The notes beneath the pieces were generated by a model. It was not told the DNA's origin, did not search any database, and saw nothing but the letters and a program-made list of their open reading frames with translations. Positions 24,166 through 34,320 of a DNA stretch of 64,000 bases are shown piece after piece. Source of the stretch: Natronococcus sp. AD-5 (GTDB lineage: Archaea; Halobacteriota; Halobacteria; Halobacteriales; Natrialbaceae). Within the stretch, counting starts at the first letter, position 1. The number at the start of each line of letters is the position of its first letter. Where the stretch lies: NCBI RefSeq assembly GCF_030734285.1, contig NZ_CP132294.1:2046001-2110000 (forward strand). Direction: 5' to 3'. Made by a program: the position numbers and the translations under genes.

Positions 24166-24400
24166 ACGATCGCGATTACCAGTGGTAGTCACGTGCTAGT
24201 AATGAACGTTCCGCACGCCGCCCCCACACACGGCTTCGATAGCACCCTGATCTTGTGGCGACGAACAGTCCCTCAATGCTGCGGTCGACGGTAACCGAAG
24301 CGTCCACGGTCCACCGTTTCGTCCGGCGCCACCACGACCGGGCCGTTCACGAGCAGCATCGCCCAGCCAGGAGGCTCCACCGGAACTACAAGTGTGTGTC
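24166..24400. repeat. Shared upstream region, second copy
   Basis: Counterpart of 10284-10520, ending with ctccaccggaac. Both copies lie directly upstream of an orc1 relic in the same orientation. A stretch of no known function otherwise. Confidence 0.6.
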
Positions 24401-24464
24401 TGCCCGCCGATCGAGATCATGGCTCGGGATTCCCCTTCAGAACGGGCTACCCAGCCGGGCAGAC

Positions 24465-25058
24465 GCCCGGGTCGTGCTCGCCTCAAGTGCGGCGATCGAC
24501 GGCCATCCCGACCAGGTGCCGATTACGGAAGGCGATCGCAAAACGCCGACCTCGCTGTACGGACTCGACAAACTCGCGATCGACCACTACGCCCGGCAGT
24601 ACCACGACCTCTACGGGTTCGAAACGGTCGGACTGCGCTACATCAACGCCTAGGGCCCGGGCCAGACCGCCGACGACTACAGCGGCGTGATCAGCAGCTT
24701 CTGCGACCAAGCTCTAAATGATGAGCCGCTCACCCTCCACGGCGACGACGGGCTGAAGCGGAATTTCGTCTTTATCGACGATATCGTGCAGGCGGACCTC
24801 CGGGCTGCGACGACCGAGCAGAACGGGGTGTCGTACAACGTCGGCTCCGGGACGAGCGTGACGATCAACGAGCTCGCGGAGACGATCGTTGAGGTCACCG
24901 ATTCCGATTCAGAGATCACACATACCGAGGGCTGAGACGGCGATACCCGTCACAGCGAGGCCGAGATGACGGCGGCCCGAACGACGCTCGGCCACAAGCC
25001 CACGGTGGCGCTCGACGATGGGGTTGAGCAAACCGTCGCATGGCTTCGTGACCGGTAA
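24465..25058 (+). pseudogene. NAD-dependent epimerase/dehydratase (GalE-like), broken
   Basis: The frame reads VVLASSAAIDGHPDQVPITE, then SLYGLDKLAIDHYARQYHDL with the catalytic YxxxK, then GFETVGLRYINA, stop, GPGQTADDYSGVIS and further C-terminal GalE-like sequence to VAWLRDR. In-frame stops are TAG at about 24651 and TGA near 24935, where relatives have sense codons. The N-terminal Rossmann part (about 110 residues) is missing. It would have been a sugar-nucleotide 4-epimerase. The two nonsense codons and the missing cofactor site make activity very unlikely. Confidence 0.8.
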
Positions 25059-27547: not shown

Positions 27548-28063
27548 GTGACTGACCTGATTACCGAATACGCCGACTACGACTCATTTGCCCGTGCGTG
27601 GCATTCAGATACCCTCGCTGACTACGACGTCTCTCTCGAAGAAGCCCGGGAACGGGGGCTTCTCAACGAACAGAAAACCCGGCAACTATGGCAATTGTTG
27701 GGACTCCTTGGCACCGATGAGCTTTTCATTCAACTGCCAGATTGGTTGGCCAACGAGAAGGTTAGGGTCACGGACAGAGCTACACCCACAATGTTCGTTG
27801 GATGCATCTCCAGAGAGACCGGGGATGCAATCCTCTTCAAAGAGTCCGCAGCGGCCCGGCCACTGATGGGACTCGCACACAGAATTCATTCACTCGAAAA
27901 GGGAATTGAAAATACAGGGGCAGATACCGACCGCCACGAGCGGTCAGAGAATCGTCTTCAAGACCACTACCAACAGTTTCGCAACCGAGATGACCTTCCC
28001 ATCCTCTCTGACGAGTGGCTTCCAAAAAGCCAACTCATAACGGCTGTTCAGCGGTGTGAGTGA
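27548..28063 (+). CDS. Hypothetical acidic protein
   Basis: 171-residue frame starting at GTG 27548, with a TATA-like aatattaatg about 30 bp upstream. No family is recognised. The predicted content is mostly helical, with LTEYADYDSF-like start, LLNEQKTRQLWQLLGLLGTD and a beta strand TPTMFVGCISRETGDAILFK. No Cys cluster, signal peptide or membrane span is present. Codon use looks like that of neighbouring real genes. It follows the wHTH pair by 82 bp on the same strand and may belong to the same unit. Confidence 0.55.
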   Translation: MTDLITEYADYDSFARAWHSDTLADYDVSLEEARERGLLNEQKTRQLWQLLGLLGTDELFIQLPDWLANEKVRVTDRATPTMFVGCISRETGDAILFKESAAARPLMGLAHRIHSLEKGIENTGADTDRHERSENRLQDHYQQFRNRDDLPILSDEWLPKSQLITAVQRCE

Positions 28064-28196
28064 ACCAAATACCGGCCTTCATCGGCAGAAATGACGGTTG
28101 TAATGGCGAATTTTCAGAAATGACCGTACGTCACCAGACTGGTGCTGATCAGACCGATATACTGCATTCCTCTGGGACTGCTGTGCGAGATACGCG

Positions 28197-28325
28197 CCCT
28201 GTATCTTGTAGAGACTCCACGAACTACCGGACTGTTGTCAGAACCAGCGTGCAAGATACAGGGAATGTATTCAGCACGCCTCTCTTGACAGTGGCTCGGT
28301 AGTTCGATTCGGTTTTGCTGAATAC
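28197..28325. repeat. Interlaced inverted repeats (A-B-A'-C-B'-C')
   Basis: Three perfect inverted repeats overlap. A is CCCTGTATCTTG at 28197-28208 with CAAGATACAGGG at 28252-28263. B is CGAACTACCG at 28220-28229 with CGGTAGTTCG at 28297-28306. C is GTATTCAGCA at 28267-28276 with TGCTGAATAC at 28316-28325. A and C can form two stem-loops whose loops carry the two halves of B, so the loops could pair with each other like a kissing-loop. It lies downstream of the 171-aa gene. No protein is encoded here. Confidence 0.75.
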
Positions 28326-28381
28326 AGGTGAACGATATAACATAACATATTGTAATCTATCCAGTCTTAGTCAAGAATGGT

Positions 28382-28397
28382 ATGCTGAATATAGAGG
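28382..28397. repeat. GCTGAATATAGAGGATG end motif
   Basis: TGCTGAATATAGAGGA here resembles tgctaaatatagagga at 32694-32709. Paired with TATTCAGCA upstream at 28268 it could be the outer end of a small palindromic element. The rest of 28326-28628 shows no gene. Confidence 0.45.
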
Positions 28398-28628
28398 ATG
28401 AGTTAAGCACGACGCCAACGTCTGTTTCACGTCGAAGCTAACGAATCAACCGCTCAGCAGGCCTACGAAGATATTTATTCGAGAGGACTGCGTAAACACT
28501 GCAAGGAATCGATACCTTGTTAGCGAAGCCGTCTTGAACGGGCCCAATCACTAGTCATTGCCTGTGTGGTCATATCCCTGCTGAATCGTGTACTGTTTCT
28601 AACGATTAGTATAGATAACCCACGGTCA

Positions 28629-28898
28629 CTAACGGATTATCCCCCCCCGACTACGTGAACGTCTTGAGTGCGAAGATGTTGTCTCTCGCCCAAGCATTAG
28701 GTACAAAAAGAAACCCGCTATAGATAACAAAAAGACCACGACAGCCCACATCGTCGGTGATTGGTTGTCGTTCTCCCAGCTGAAGGCATCCGTGAACGCC
28801 CATACCGCCATACTCAGATTTACCATCAGAATTAAAACCAGTAGGAATGAACCGAACTCACCGCGCCAGCCAGATTGGAGCATAGCTTCGGGAATCAT
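28629..28898 (-). CDS. Small two-span membrane protein, PLDc N-terminal-like
   Basis: 89 residues. A first hydrophobic span SFLLVLILMVNLSMAVWAFT is followed by DAFSWENDNQSP and a second span, AVVVFLLSIAGFFLYLMLG, then a basic tail HSRRSRSRGG. The W-A-x-D-A-F and final YLMLGRE pattern recalls the PLDc N-terminal membrane domain found alone in many archaea and bacteria. Function of these small proteins is unknown. The basic tail should lie inside the cell. A run of C (ccccccc) near the stop makes the last codons sensitive to sequencing error. Confidence 0.6.
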   Translation of the reverse strand: MIPEAMLQSGWRGEFGSFLLVLILMVNLSMAVWAFTDAFSWENDNQSPTMWAVVVFLLSIAGFFLYLMLGRETTSSHSRRSRSRGGIIR

Positions 28899-29086
28899 GA
28901 ACGGAGAACCATTCTAAACTCCAATATACTTTCTGGAACAAATATCGGTATAGGGTACGTGAGTACATGTAGTGTACAGACATATCTACAGGATCTCTGT
29001 AGAATGGAATTTTAACAGAACCTATGCTATCAGTATTGACTGATCACCTTCGCTGATCGGCCTCTGATTCGTGCTGCATTCGCGCT

Positions 29087-29220
29087 TTCTATTCAGCACG
29101 CCTGTCCCCAAATCTCCGCTGACTGGCAGATTCCTCAACGGTCGATAAACATCTCTATGTAACGATCAACTCTTTGAGTTCGGAGCTAACTCAGAGACGG
29201 CGCTTACGTTACGTAGAGAT
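29087..29220. repeat. Hairpin element, left copy, downstream of the PAS kinase
   Basis: Starts ttctattcagcacgcct and contains arms atctctatgtaacg (29151-29164) and cgttacgtagagat (29207-29220), 13 of 14 bases complementary, with an inner gagtt/aactc stem. The same layout occurs at 32516-32704 on the other side of the kinase gene in the same orientation. Confidence 0.65.
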
Positions 29221-29358: not shown

Positions 29359-32300
29359 TCAGAGCTCGTGATCCGTTACCGTTGGCAGCGTAAACGAGAA
29401 CGTCGCTCCTTCGTTCGGTTCCGATTCGACCCAAATCTCCCCGCCGTGGCGCTCGACAATTCGTTGGCAGAGCGCCAGTCCGATACCGGTCCCCTTGTGC
29501 TCCTCGCGGCTGTGGAGTCGCTGGAAGACTTCGAACACGCGCTCCTGTTCGTCAGGCTCAATCCCGATTCCCTCGTCGTGGACTGAGACGATCCACTTCC
29601 CATCCCGTTGTTCGGAGTCGACGCGGATCGTCGGCGGTCCGTCCCCGCTGTACTCGATCGCGTTCGACAGGAGGTTCTGGAACAGCTGCCGTAACTGATT
29701 GGCGTCGCCGTTCACGCGAGGGAGTTTGCCGACGGATACGTCGGTATTACTTTCCGCGAGCTGCAGCTGGATGTCCGTGAGGACGTCGTCAACAACGTCC
29801 TCGAGATCGGTCGGCTCGAACGGATCGCCTCGCGTTTCGATTCGGGAGTACGTGAGTAGGCCATCGATCATGTTCCGCATCCGGTCCGCCCCATCAATGG
29901 CGAACTCAAGGAACTCCTCGCCCTCCTCGTCAAGTGCGTCACCGTATCTGTTCTCGATCAACTGGAGATAACTGGAGACCATCCGCAGGGGTTCTTGCAA
30001 GTCGTGTGAGGCTGCGTACGCGAAGTGTTCGAGGCGTTCGTTCGAGGTCTCGAGCCGCTCGATGGTCTCCTCGAGTTTCCGTTGGTACTCTCGACGTTCG
30101 GTAATGTCGCTCAGGGTGAGCACCGCGCGCGTCACCTTACCTCGCTCGTTCCTGATCGGCATCCCCTTGACGCTGAGGATGCGCCGCACGCCGTCAGTAG
30201 CCTCGATCTCGAAGATTCGTGGATCAGTGACCTCCTCGCCCCGAAGCAGCCGGGCAATCGTCCACTCATTACGTTCGACCGGCTCTCCTGTGTCAACCCA
30301 TGTGACGGGGAACTCGTTGTAGTCGTCGAGGGAATCACCCTCCAACACGTCGCCACCCCAGATTTCCTTGGCCGCGTTGTTGGCTTCAACGAGTCCCCCG
30401 TCCTCATCCGCAACGACGACACCGACGGGGAGAATTTCGAACAGCGTCTCTAGCTGTTCGTTGTTTCGCTCGAGTTGTAACTCGGCACGTTTCCGTTCCG
30501 TGATGTCGGTGACTGCACCGGTGAATCTGACGGGGCTTCCATCTTCGTTACACTCGACGCGGCCACGGGAAACGATCCACCGGAGTTCGTCGTCAGCGTT
30601 CCACACGCGGTACTCCGCCTCGTACTCCCCACAGGACTCGAGAGCGTCGTCGATCTTCTCTTCAATTCTGGAACGGTCTTCCTCGTAAATCGAGGTGAGG
30701 AACCGGTCACTTGACACACCCTCGCGGGCTGCGTTGGGATCGACATCGAACGTTCTGGCGAACGTTTCTCCGGTGATCATCTGGTCTTCCGGAATCTTCC
30801 ATTCCCAAGTACCGACAGCACCGGCTTCAATCGCTGCCTCGAGTTGCGATTTTGTGTCTTCTAAATACCGTTCACGCTCTTTTTGCTCGGTGATGTCTTG
30901 GGCCATCGTCATTCCCGCGAAGACGTCTCCCCGCTCATCCGTAATCGGGACTGCATAGAGCATCCACTCCCGGCCCGCGTACTCGAGTTCGATCGACGTT
31001 TCCTCGCCGTTGAGTGCCGCCTGAAACGCGGGATCGAGGTCATCGACGGTCTCGTCGGGCCAAACCTCGTGGAACTGGCGACCCTCGAGATCCTCGGGGT
31101 CGACGGGAATCCGATCGAATCCCTGTCCGGCTGTTAGTGTGTACTCGAGGTCGTGATCGAACAGCGTCACGAGTCCGTTCGGGAAGCACTCCGCAAGTGT
31201 GCGGTAGCGCCGCTCAGACTCCTCGAGGGCGCGCTCGCGCTCCTTGCGCTCGGTAATGTCGCGGAAGTACACCGACAACCCCGTCTCGGAGGGATAAGCG
31301 TTCACTTCTGCCCAGATGCCGAAGGGCTCGGAATAGTGTTCGAACGAAACGGGTTCTTGGGTCTCCATCGCCTCGTGGAATTGGTCGTAGATGTTCGAGC
31401 CGATGGCTTCCGGAAACACTTCCCGTGCGTTCTTCCCGAGTAATTCCTCACGCGACTGTTCCATGAACTCCGCGGCGTGCTCGTTGACGTGTGTGTACCG
31501 CCACTCCTCGTCGAGCGCGTAGAACGCATCGGAGATCCGACCGAAAATCTCGTCCAGTTCGGTCTCGAGTTCGCGCTCGCGTTCTTTGAGTTCGGTGATA
31601 TCCTCGCCGGTCGTGACGACACGGTCGATGTCGCCAGCCTCGTCGAAGAGCGGCTCCGCGTTGACCGAGAGCCACCGCGAGTCGCCGCTCGGGAGTTCGG
31701 TTCGGAGTACCTCCTCGTATACCGGTTCGCCCGTCTCGAGCGTTCGAGCAAAGGGATGTTCGTCAGTCGGGATCGGCTCACCAGTTTCGTCGTAGACAGT
31801 CCGCCACGACGGATCGTACTCCTCGGCTTCGTCCGCGGAAATCTCGAGAATTTCCCGGACCCGTTCGTTCATTCGTGTGATCTCACCATCGGCGTCGAGT
31901 ACTAGAATGCCGACGGGGCTTGTCTCGAGGATCTGATCGATCAGATCGCGCTCGCGCTTGAGTTGCTGTTCGCGTTCATCGAGCGTTTCTTCCGTTCGTT
32001 TTCTGCCGGTGACGTCACGGACGATCCCGACCGATCCCTGAAGCGTGCCGTCGTCGACGAGCAGACTCACCCGCAGCTCGCAATAGATCACCTCGTCATC
32101 GGCAGTACGTGCCGTGATCTCGAAGGGGTTGGTCAGCTGCTCGTCGTTTGCCACACTCTCGGCGATTTCACTCGAAATTCGTTCGACATCATCGTCCTCG
32201 AGCAGTATCGAGACGTGTTCGCCGAGGAGTTGGTTCCGCGTGTAGCCGCTTATCTCGACGATAATATTGTTAACCGCGACGAACCGGCCAGCAGAATCGA

Positions 32301-32418
32301 GCTGGTAGATCCCGTCGTCGACCGTGTTCACGAGCGTCTGGTAGCGCTGGATAACCAGAGAATCGTCGGCTTCGTCCGCCCAGAAGGCTGGTTCTGCCGC
32401 GTTCGCTCGTTTACTCAT
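29359..32418 (-). CDS. Multi-PAS sensor histidine kinase
   Basis: About 1,019 residues with no membrane span, so a cytoplasmic sensor. Six PAS/PAC modules follow in series, each ending with the typical DITE/DVTG-RKR or KER linker: GIVRDVTGRKR, TTGEDITELKER, VYFRDITERKER, MAQDITEQKER, GAVTDITERKR and LTLSDITERRE. Then comes a HisKA domain with phospho-acceptor His near residue 805 in AYAASHDLQEPLRMV, and a HATPase with LRQLFQNLLSNAIEYS (N box), DEGIGI (G1), EVFQRLHS (F) and GTGIGLALC (G2). ATG 32418 is preferred to 32472 because a ttttatca TATA-like box lies about 27 bp before it. No response regulator gene is adjacent. The signal is unknown; haem or flavin binding cannot be judged. Confidence 0.9.
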   Translation of the reverse strand: MSKRANAAEPAFWADEADDSLVIQRYQTLVNTVDDGIYQLDSAGRFVAVNNIIVEISGYTRNQLLGEHVSILLEDDDVERISSEIAESVANDEQLTNPFEITARTADDEVIYCELRVSLLVDDGTLQGSVGIVRDVTGRKRTEETLDEREQQLKRERDLIDQILETSPVGILVLDADGEITRMNERVREILEISADEAEEYDPSWRTVYDETGEPIPTDEHPFARTLETGEPVYEEVLRTELPSGDSRWLSVNAEPLFDEAGDIDRVVTTGEDITELKERERELETELDEIFGRISDAFYALDEEWRYTHVNEHAAEFMEQSREELLGKNAREVFPEAIGSNIYDQFHEAMETQEPVSFEHYSEPFGIWAEVNAYPSETGLSVYFRDITERKERERALEESERRYRTLAECFPNGLVTLFDHDLEYTLTAGQGFDRIPVDPEDLEGRQFHEVWPDETVDDLDPAFQAALNGEETSIELEYAGREWMLYAVPITDERGDVFAGMTMAQDITEQKERERYLEDTKSQLEAAIEAGAVGTWEWKIPEDQMITGETFARTFDVDPNAAREGVSSDRFLTSIYEEDRSRIEEKIDDALESCGEYEAEYRVWNADDELRWIVSRGRVECNEDGSPVRFTGAVTDITERKRAELQLERNNEQLETLFEILPVGVVVADEDGGLVEANNAAKEIWGGDVLEGDSLDDYNEFPVTWVDTGEPVERNEWTIARLLRGEEVTDPRIFEIEATDGVRRILSVKGMPIRNERGKVTRAVLTLSDITERREYQRKLEETIERLETSNERLEHFAYAASHDLQEPLRMVSSYLQLIENRYGDALDEEGEEFLEFAIDGADRMRNMIDGLLTYSRIETRGDPFEPTDLEDVVDDVLTDIQLQLAESNTDVSVGKLPRVNGDANQLRQLFQNLLSNAIEYSGDGPPTIRVDSEQRDGKWIVSVHDEGIGIEPDEQERVFEVFQRLHSREEHKGTGIGLALCQRIVERHGGEIWVESEPNEGATFSFTLPTVTDHEL

Positions 32419-32515
32419 GGCTACTCGGTGGGCGCTGTCAGTGATAAAACCTATGCTGGTCGTGGTTCTCAAGGAATGATCCTCGCCGTTGCAGAGCCGT
32501 ACAAGATTCGCAATT

Positions 32516-32704
32516 TCTATTCAGCATCGCTCTCCCAATACCATTCCTATCTGATAGAACCTCAGCGTTAGGTTCGCACCTCTACGTAACGATTATTCTG
32601 AGTTCGACACTAACTTGAGGGAGGCTCCTTCGTTACATAGAGGTGAAGTAGGTATCAGAGCAGCAATTGAATTCCCATATAACTGTCAAAACCGCGTGCT
32701 AAAT
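32516..32704. repeat. Hairpin element, right copy, upstream of the PAS kinase
   Basis: Flanked by tattcagca (32516-32524) and tgctaaata (32694-32702), which form imperfect terminal inverted repeats. Inside, cctctacgtaacga (32579-32592) and tcgttacatagagg (32630-32643) are 13 of 14 complementary. Size and layout resemble a MITE-like palindromic element. It starts about 100 bp before the kinase start codon, so it may influence kinase transcription. Confidence 0.6.
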
Positions 32705-32907
32705 ATAGAGGATAGATGAAGCGAATCGACGTTGTTTCTTCCAAGAGGTTAGCACTGAATCATCCGATCAGTAGAACTGCGCACTGATCGATGATGATTC
32801 AACCAAGTCGATGCGAACTTCTGATTGACCCGGTGCACGTTTCTCGCCCTATACCAGGTTACGGTAACCATTGCTATTTCCGCCATCCAGCGGCGCAGTC
32901 TGTCTAC

Positions 32908-33411: not shown

Positions 33412-33686
33412 TTCGTATACATGTTCTACCTACCGGCATGAATTTTGTGTTCTAATTGATATCACTCTCCCGTAGAAAACGCCCTCTGTTTCCGACAAAT
33501 TTTTGAAAAACAATTGATACTCCAGTAACTGCTTCACCTATATTGACCGATCCAACGCGCTCAACAAGAACTAATCGCGTTTGATTGGGAGAACAGTTCG
33601 AAGGGGTACCCGGCGCATTGATCGATACTCTTAGCGGCCAATCCAACAGTAAAGGGCGGACAATACAGACATACCGCTCTTGGGGG

Positions 33687-34094
33687 CTAATTGACGACGA
33701 GTTCGGCGTTCAGTTGGTGATCGAGGAACGCCTCCAGATCGACGCCGACACCGAGATGGTCCGCCAGCAACTGGCGCCATCGGGCTCGCATCGATTGGCC
33801 GATAACAACGTAGTCGGCGTCCTGTTCAGCGGCCTCTTTGAGGATCGCTTTTTCGATCAGGTACGCATCCCGAACGTGACAACTCGTGTCTGGAGGGGGA
33901 TCGACCTTCTCGTGGACAGCGCGACGGAACTGCGTTCGATCGACGTCCTTACCTTTGTGCAACACGTTCACGTGCAGGATATACAGGTGGGTGTCATCGA
34001 GTTTGTCGGCGAGGTCGATAGCGTGGGCTATCGTCTCCGCGCTCGGTTTTTGCAGTGGATATCGGATTGGTACCAACAGTGTGGTCCGGTTCAC
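33687..34094 (-). CDS. Universal stress protein UspA-like
   Basis: About 135 residues from a GTG start at 34092-34094, beginning VNRTTLLVPIRYPLQKPSAE. The family layout is clear: LLVPIRYP strand, TIAHAIDLADKLDDTHLYIL helix/strand, KAILKEAAEQDADYVVIGQS and an acidic C-terminal GVGVDLEAFLDHQLNAELVV. The ATP-binding G-2x-G-9x-G-S/T motif is reduced to VIGQSMRARWRQL, so ATP binding is doubtful. Longer in-frame starts upstream lack family similarity. The neighbouring 33412-33686 has no gene. Confidence 0.72.
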   Translation of the reverse strand: MNRTTLLVPIRYPLQKPSAETIAHAIDLADKLDDTHLYILHVNVLHKGKDVDRTQFRRAVHEKVDPPPDTSCHVRDAYLIEKAILKEAAEQDADYVVIGQSMRARWRQLLADHLGVGVDLEAFLDHQLNAELVVN

Positions 34095-34320
34095 AGTATT
34101 ACTACGGTTAGCCAGTATATGAATCCAGTATCCGCTGAGTGGTAACTCTGCTGGAGGTGGCTGTATAGTTCCATTTGACGATTGGTATTGGTTGATCACT
34201 AATTCATCAAACCCCGCCCGGATGCTCAGCGACAACTCCGATCCAAGGTGGACGCTTGAACACGGGAACTTACGTATTCAGCGACGCACTTGTACAGAGG
34301 AGCACACCTCCCGCACTACC

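Follow-up and report, generated by a model that had tools for sequence, protein, structure and literature searches.

In the window, the whole 64,000-nt stretch of Natronococcus sp. AD-5 DNA analysed here (own genome G000, 5.17 Mb in two contigs), a plus-strand gene of 171 aa (27548..28063), which has no Pfam match and lies in a locus 83-92% conserved in three relatives, is followed by two short repeats placed head to head. The first of these, unit 1 (28182..28277, plus strand), was defined by HMM and by alignment with 33 other units, and is a complete four-box site composed of box R'' (TGTGCGAGATACGCG, 28182-28196), box L'' (CCCTGTATCTTG, 28197-28208), a loop (28209-28251), box L' (CAAGATACAGGG, 28252-28263) and box R' (GTATTCAGCAC, 28267-28277). 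Homology with the relative G002 downstream of the 171-aa gene ends at 28188, inside box R''. The second, unit 2 (28266..28328, minus strand), is an inverted copy with the loop CGAACTACCG...CTGTCAAGAG, and is 87% identical to G000:C1:2921718-2921779 and 83% identical to C1:1288252-1288314. The L' box of unit 1 meets that of unit 2 head to head in a shared simple site, GTGCAAGATACAGGGAATGTATTCAGCACG (28249..28280), which by its sequence looks like a recombinant junction.

Immediately beyond the pair, a degenerate left end (LE; 28323..28412, plus strand; LE HMM E=1.3e-6, hr HMM E=3.9e-8), including an L'R' half-site at 28370-28411, marks the start of a cassette whose passenger ORF encodes an 89-aa membrane protein of the PLDc_N family (28629..28898, minus strand; Pfam PF13396, E=1.6e-7), and which is closed by a right end (RE; 29070..29165, plus strand; RE HMM E=6.8e-10) made of an R''L'' half-site and a tip ...CATCTCTATGTAACG. 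At 29153..29218 lies a second type of junction, in which the RE tip CTCTATGTAACG and an inverted left-end-type tip CGTTACGTAGAG are separated by a 42-bp spacer; junctions of this type, with CTACGTAACG/CGTTACGTAG arms and a 38-42 bp spacer, part an RE from the next LE both here and at 32580-32642 of the window, as well as at loci L103 and L098. The following passenger, identified by Pfam, is a gene for a 1037-aa PAS/histidine kinase (29359..32472, minus strand), the C-terminal part of which recurs very many times within every genome of the genus, at 70-76% identity, as a large expansion of paralogues. It is succeeded by an RE (32499..32593, plus strand; RE HMM E=5.8e-15) and, 39 bp past this, by the LE of the next cassette (32632..32722, plus strand; LE HMM E=3e-14), while positions 33610..34211 are a 90% copy of a cassette interior found at G000:C2:249162-249960 (USP-like 162-aa ORF). 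Elsewhere in the window, at 24255-24935, pieces resembling an NAD-dependent sugar epimerase lie in different frames, apparently a broken gene.

The segment at 28197-28325 had been described, in a sequence-only reading, as three perfect inverted repeats of 12, 10 and 10 bp arranged A-B-A'-C-B'-C' and able to form a kissing-loop. All three repeats are present, A as 12 bp (28197-28208/28252-28263), B as 10 bp (28220-28229/28297-28306) and C as 11 bp (28266-28276/28316-28326) rather than the 10 bp originally given, and their coordinates confirm the interlaced layout. That three such repeats would rarely meet by chance also held, with no cluster of three perfect repeats within 140 bp in 100 dinucleotide shuffles; a single perfect repeat of at least 10 bp within 140 bp is unremarkable, since 11 occur in the window and 9.0 +/- 2.7 in each shuffled one. 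Judged from sequence comparison, the segment is two head-to-head copies of one repeat of ~66 nt (28197-28263, plus strand, and 28328-28266, minus strand), repeat A being the end stem of copy 1, repeat C (C/C') that of copy 2, and repeat B (CGAACTACCG) a conserved loop stretch found in each copy. The three repeats are thus not independent, because A and C each mark the ends of one copy in an inverted pair of the same repeat, and B appears as an inverted repeat because these copies stand head to head. Nor is the interlacing a conserved device, since copies elsewhere are mostly solitary or arrayed in one direction. A kissing-loop does not survive this comparison, as partnerless single units are the norm and B is loop sequence conserved copy by copy; in its place, we regard the feature as probably a junction belonging to a haloarchaeal system of mobile gene cassettes.

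Alignment of 34 units gave a consensus of CGTGCnnCATTCGCGC, (C/T)TGTATTCAGCA, a ~36-nt loop (GATCGAACTACCGAATCGCTGTCAAGAGCGGC), TGCTGAATACAGAG and GATGnATTCAGCACG, with four boxes per unit in the order R'', L'', L', R', read from the alignment as CGTGC..CATTC, TATTCAGCA, TGCTGAATA and TTCAGCACG. Each half of a unit is a simple site, i.e. an inverted pair of ~7-mers set ~13 bp apart (TGCTGAA..TTCAGCA), and two simple sites flank the conserved loop of ~36 nt in the layout R''-L''-loop-L'-R'. The inner stem L''/L' is 84.6% paired in this alignment, and its two boxes match better within their own unit than between units (2.44 vs 1.84 for the core three pairs, p<1/5000), with compensatory variants such as TCTTGTA/TGCAAGA (unit 1 of the window), TCTCGCA/TGCGAGA and TATTGTA/TGCAACA. 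The outer helix R''/R' is paired in 58.8% of cells, with p=0.985 for own-unit against between-unit match, and hairpins within half-sites (box pairs within L'R' or R''L'') did not covary above shuffles. Covariation, which had been suggested as a check on all three stems, is hence found for the stem of the single unit (A or C), and the A-B-C interlacing is not conserved. Because L''/L' co-match within a unit and R''/R' do not, the pattern fits joint inheritance of L''-loop-L', with breaks in the spacers between L and R boxes.

A structured RNA or kissing-loop that regulates neighboring genes would be in keeping with this covarying inner stem, and with the strong single-stranded DNA fold of unit 1 (z=-4.05). 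Against it, Rfam and tRNA scans found nothing, RNAalifold gave no consensus structure on the 34 copies, units point either way with respect to genes, and conservation does not extend to the inverted pairing, which together make such a role very improbable. Antisense control, likewise proposed for the segment, finds no more support than the structured RNA in the Rfam and RNAalifold results; among the three functions that had been guessed at, a protein-bound recombination end is the one that the evidence favors.

A search of the own genome with the segment returned 33-43 partial matches, mostly to the 63 bp of 28266-28328. Of 41 related haloarchaeal genomes, 19 contain the repeat, as do 43 plasmid records spanning several haloarchaeal genera; a phage collection gave no match to the unit. 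Scanning collections of genome contigs and viral contigs with a strict 34-base pattern gave zero matches, the pattern being too strict. Units usually occur alone or in same-direction arrays with a spacing of 0.7-3.7 kb. The ends fall into two site types, LE (tip CGTTACGTACAGGTCAAGCAGGTAACG-loop-L'R') and RE (R''L''-loop-tip CGTTAGGTTCGCATCTCTACGTAACG), and at E<1e-4 each of six genomes of this genus holds 11-30 LE matches; the HMMs for the sites were built from Natrialbaceae, some of the half-site matches are weak, and divergence of the intergenic DNA blurs exactly where LE/RE inserts begin and end. Read along a single strand, the sites come in the order LE, units, RE, with 38 of 43 transitions allowed against 26.7 expected, a count reached in 0 of 2000 label shuffles, and same-orientation site arrays are present, as in integrons. 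The intervals of these arrays hold one or two accessory genes each, in mixed orientation relative to the array, which encode PAS kinases, response regulators, HTH regulators, USP, a cold-shock protein, alpha/beta hydrolases, lipoproteins, plastocyanin, metal-resistance transporters and many hypotheticals. Some small inserts (L085, L167 and similar) also contain a separate intergenic repeat, GGGACCTTCGGTCCCGC..CGTGAGCAGAGAG.

Mobility of the cassettes is well supported by comparisons within and between genomes. A cassette with a 140-aa gene occurs at both 1288 kb and 3286 kb of G000:C1 with interiors ~100% identical, and exactly at L' and L'' identity falls, to 46% on the left (the loop side) and to 60% on the right. 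An SDR-gene cassette from the 1287-kb locus recurs elsewhere in G004 with 91% conservation, and G004 carries another LE-RE cassette at the orthologous place. At three orthologous sites (a, b and c), empty sites in some genomes amount to 2-25 bp between convergent genes. Site a is empty in G008, G000, G004, G001 and G007 (10-25 bp between two convergent genes) and occupied in G002, G003, G005 and G006, where the tips and junctions of ~54 bp on the left and ~44 bp on the right are common and the interiors differ (0.8, 2.5, 3.4 and 0.24 kb, respectively). Common junctions and tips with different interiors are also seen at site b, empty in G008 and G000 and occupied by 0.5 kb in G002 and 4.5 kb in G003 and G005; site c is empty in G008, G007 and G005, with an insert in G004. 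By inspection, none of 18 LE-RE inserts showed a target-site duplication in its flanks, nor did one emerge when occupied sites were compared with empty ones. Such exchanges could also arise if the repeats were passive and cassettes were swapped by ordinary homologous recombination between their repeated ends of ~100 bp, which are conserved and multicopy and thus allow exchange between such stretches. We consider this quite unlikely: in the clearest case the loops that flank the copied cassette share only 46-60% identity, too little for homologous exchange there, and the sites are strongly associated with one class of recombinase.

No transposase genes were present among the ~30 cassettes first inspected. 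Four of the 21 PF00589 tyrosine recombinases of G000 lie within 1.6 kb of sites vs 0.59 expected from random placement (p=0.003; site list compiled by hand), and one class stands out, with ~225 aa, a CxCGYC motif and the catalytic domain as its sole Pfam match (PF00589 E=1.6e-13 for the G000 copy). Two G000 copies of this class lie between sites (L186, L205), a plasmid of Natrinema salinisoli carries a 79%-identical one within an array, and a scan of GTDB genomes identified 28 loci in about 20 haloarchaeal genera. WP_226008235.1 of Natrinema salinisoli is an example of this ~225-aa class. A half-site is found at most 200 bp upstream or at most 140 bp downstream in 17 of 20 full-length recombinase loci (2.1 expected; maximum of 7 in 5000 random placements), and 7 loci have sites on both sides vs 0.14 expected, compared with a site within 200 bp at 1 of 14 loci that carry recombinases of other classes. 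The ~225-aa class is arranged as R''L''-recombinase-L'R'; its gene may point either way and takes the loop position of the short unit, and the L''/L' boxes flanking the recombinase also match each other (ATGCAGCA/TGCTGCAT in L216 and L230). The link between this recombinase and the sites, strong by position, leads us to infer that the enzyme acts on them; speaking against this are several unit-rich genomes without a demonstrated intact copy, and two other tyrosine-recombinase classes that are found near some ends.

The same loci raise the question of transposition. MITEs and REPIN-type repeats are short, palindromic, dispersed and intergenic, and sometimes occur in inverted pairs, all of which is also true of the haloarchaeal repeats, and an autonomous partner with the same ends is present in the R''L''-recombinase-L'R' loci, as for MITEs and insertion sequences. 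The units might accordingly be MITE-like non-autonomous insertion elements of a tyrosine-recombinase transposon, R''L''-rec-L'R', with passengers caught by chance between neighboring insertions and order resulting from insertion next to older copies. The inverted-repeat ends, the existence of empty sites and the recombinase gene at the loop position of the unit, in either orientation, agree with this. We nonetheless find it unlikely, although less so than homologous exchange, as the same passenger DNA is bounded by sites at unrelated loci, interiors are replaced at a fixed site, a fixed LE-unit-RE order is unexpected from random insertions, and the flanks inspected lack target-site duplications. 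MITEs and REPIN-type repeats are not known to bound exchangeable cassettes in fixed order, and the relative here would belong to the tyrosine recombinases rather than to the DDE or Y1 transposases.

Taken together, these results are probably best explained by an integron-like cassette system worked by the ~225-aa tyrosine recombinase, with the sites as cassette junctions. With somewhat less confidence, we favor a form of cassette shuffling in haloarchaea that is distinct from integrons, in which a compact tyrosine recombinase, encoded within a four-box site resembling attC, would carry accessory and signaling genes (kinases, HTH regulators, USP, hydrolases) between chromosomes, plasmids and genera. 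In this reading a cassette is the DNA from L'R' of one site to R''L'' of the next, and the recombinase would bind the boxes and exchange strands in the inter-box spacers, where cuts would allow cassettes to be inserted, lost, swapped at existing junctions, or inverted. The short unit would be a recombinase-less form of the recombinase element, and the head-to-head pair in the window may be the product of one crossover between two inverted L'R' sites, which would leave two L' boxes head to head as the junction 28249-28280. A difficulty is that L'R' and R''L'' are mutually inverted, and plain double-strand recombination of cassette ends would invert, not excise; by analogy with integrons (attC), a folded single-strand site would solve it.

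Integrons are resembled in the gene cassettes in arrays, the accessory genes and the tyrosine recombinase, as well as in a junction site where two simple sites, inverted to each other, enclose a loop, with L'' able to pair with L'. The system was not filed as an integron because two tests failed: no match to the integrase IntI (TIGR02249) over cut-off was found in 9 genomes including G000 (the best being partial), and the attC core RYYYAAC / GTTRRRY is absent from the 34-unit alignment. In contrast to integrons, the haloarchaeal loop is conserved, not variable, genes lie in both orientations, scattered single-cassette inserts are common, and the recombinase is inside a site, not beside a fixed platform; in a check for an attI platform, recombinases of other classes were divergent from LE in three places, without consistency. 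Archaeal integrons (Ghaly et al. 2022), known from metagenome-assembled genomes of nine phyla, have canonical IntI/attC (PMC9668308), and share with the present system site-bounded cassettes in archaea, the sites there being attC (PMC9668308); the text of that paper contains none of the words 'halo', 'Natri' and 'Euryarchaeota'. Arch1 and Arch2/SNJ2, halobacterial simple tyrosine recombinases in which short sequence insertions have been noted (PMC8138268), are likewise haloarchaeal simple tyrosine recombinases, from which the present class may be set apart by its ~225 aa, its sole catalytic-domain Pfam match and its position between cassette sites. A description of this repeat or system was not found in the open-access literature searched, which is no proof of novelty.

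Closely related genes for regulators and kinases abound in haloarchaeal genomes, and genes are exchanged readily; among described haloarchaeal exchange mechanisms, we found no dedicated gene-capture system. A site-specific cassette system would give this exchange a mechanism, would be a second, independent route to integron-like arrays, and would supply a small recombinase with short sites that is testable directly in Haloferax or Natrinema.

Two other recombinase classes were considered and set aside. P0001 adjoins an array on a Natronococcus sp. CG52 plasmid and was tried as an IntI analogue, and was dropped as the main candidate because its other intact copies are far from sites. Many decayed copies of P0001 are present in G000, some adjoining left ends, e.g. 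at C2:33013-37518, C2:279848, C2:557244, C1:3856296, C1:3905017 and C1:3929430. P0002, a tyrosine recombinase of 205 aa with the catalytic domain only, is found close to RE ends in certain relatives, but inside shared mobile DNA, a segment found in three relatives (L199-L203) and often just downstream of an RE. A further tyrosine recombinase, at L188:5216-5912 (G000:C1:3925.2-3925.9 kb), is divergent from a left end, the conserved start of which is about 90 bp from the integrase domain.
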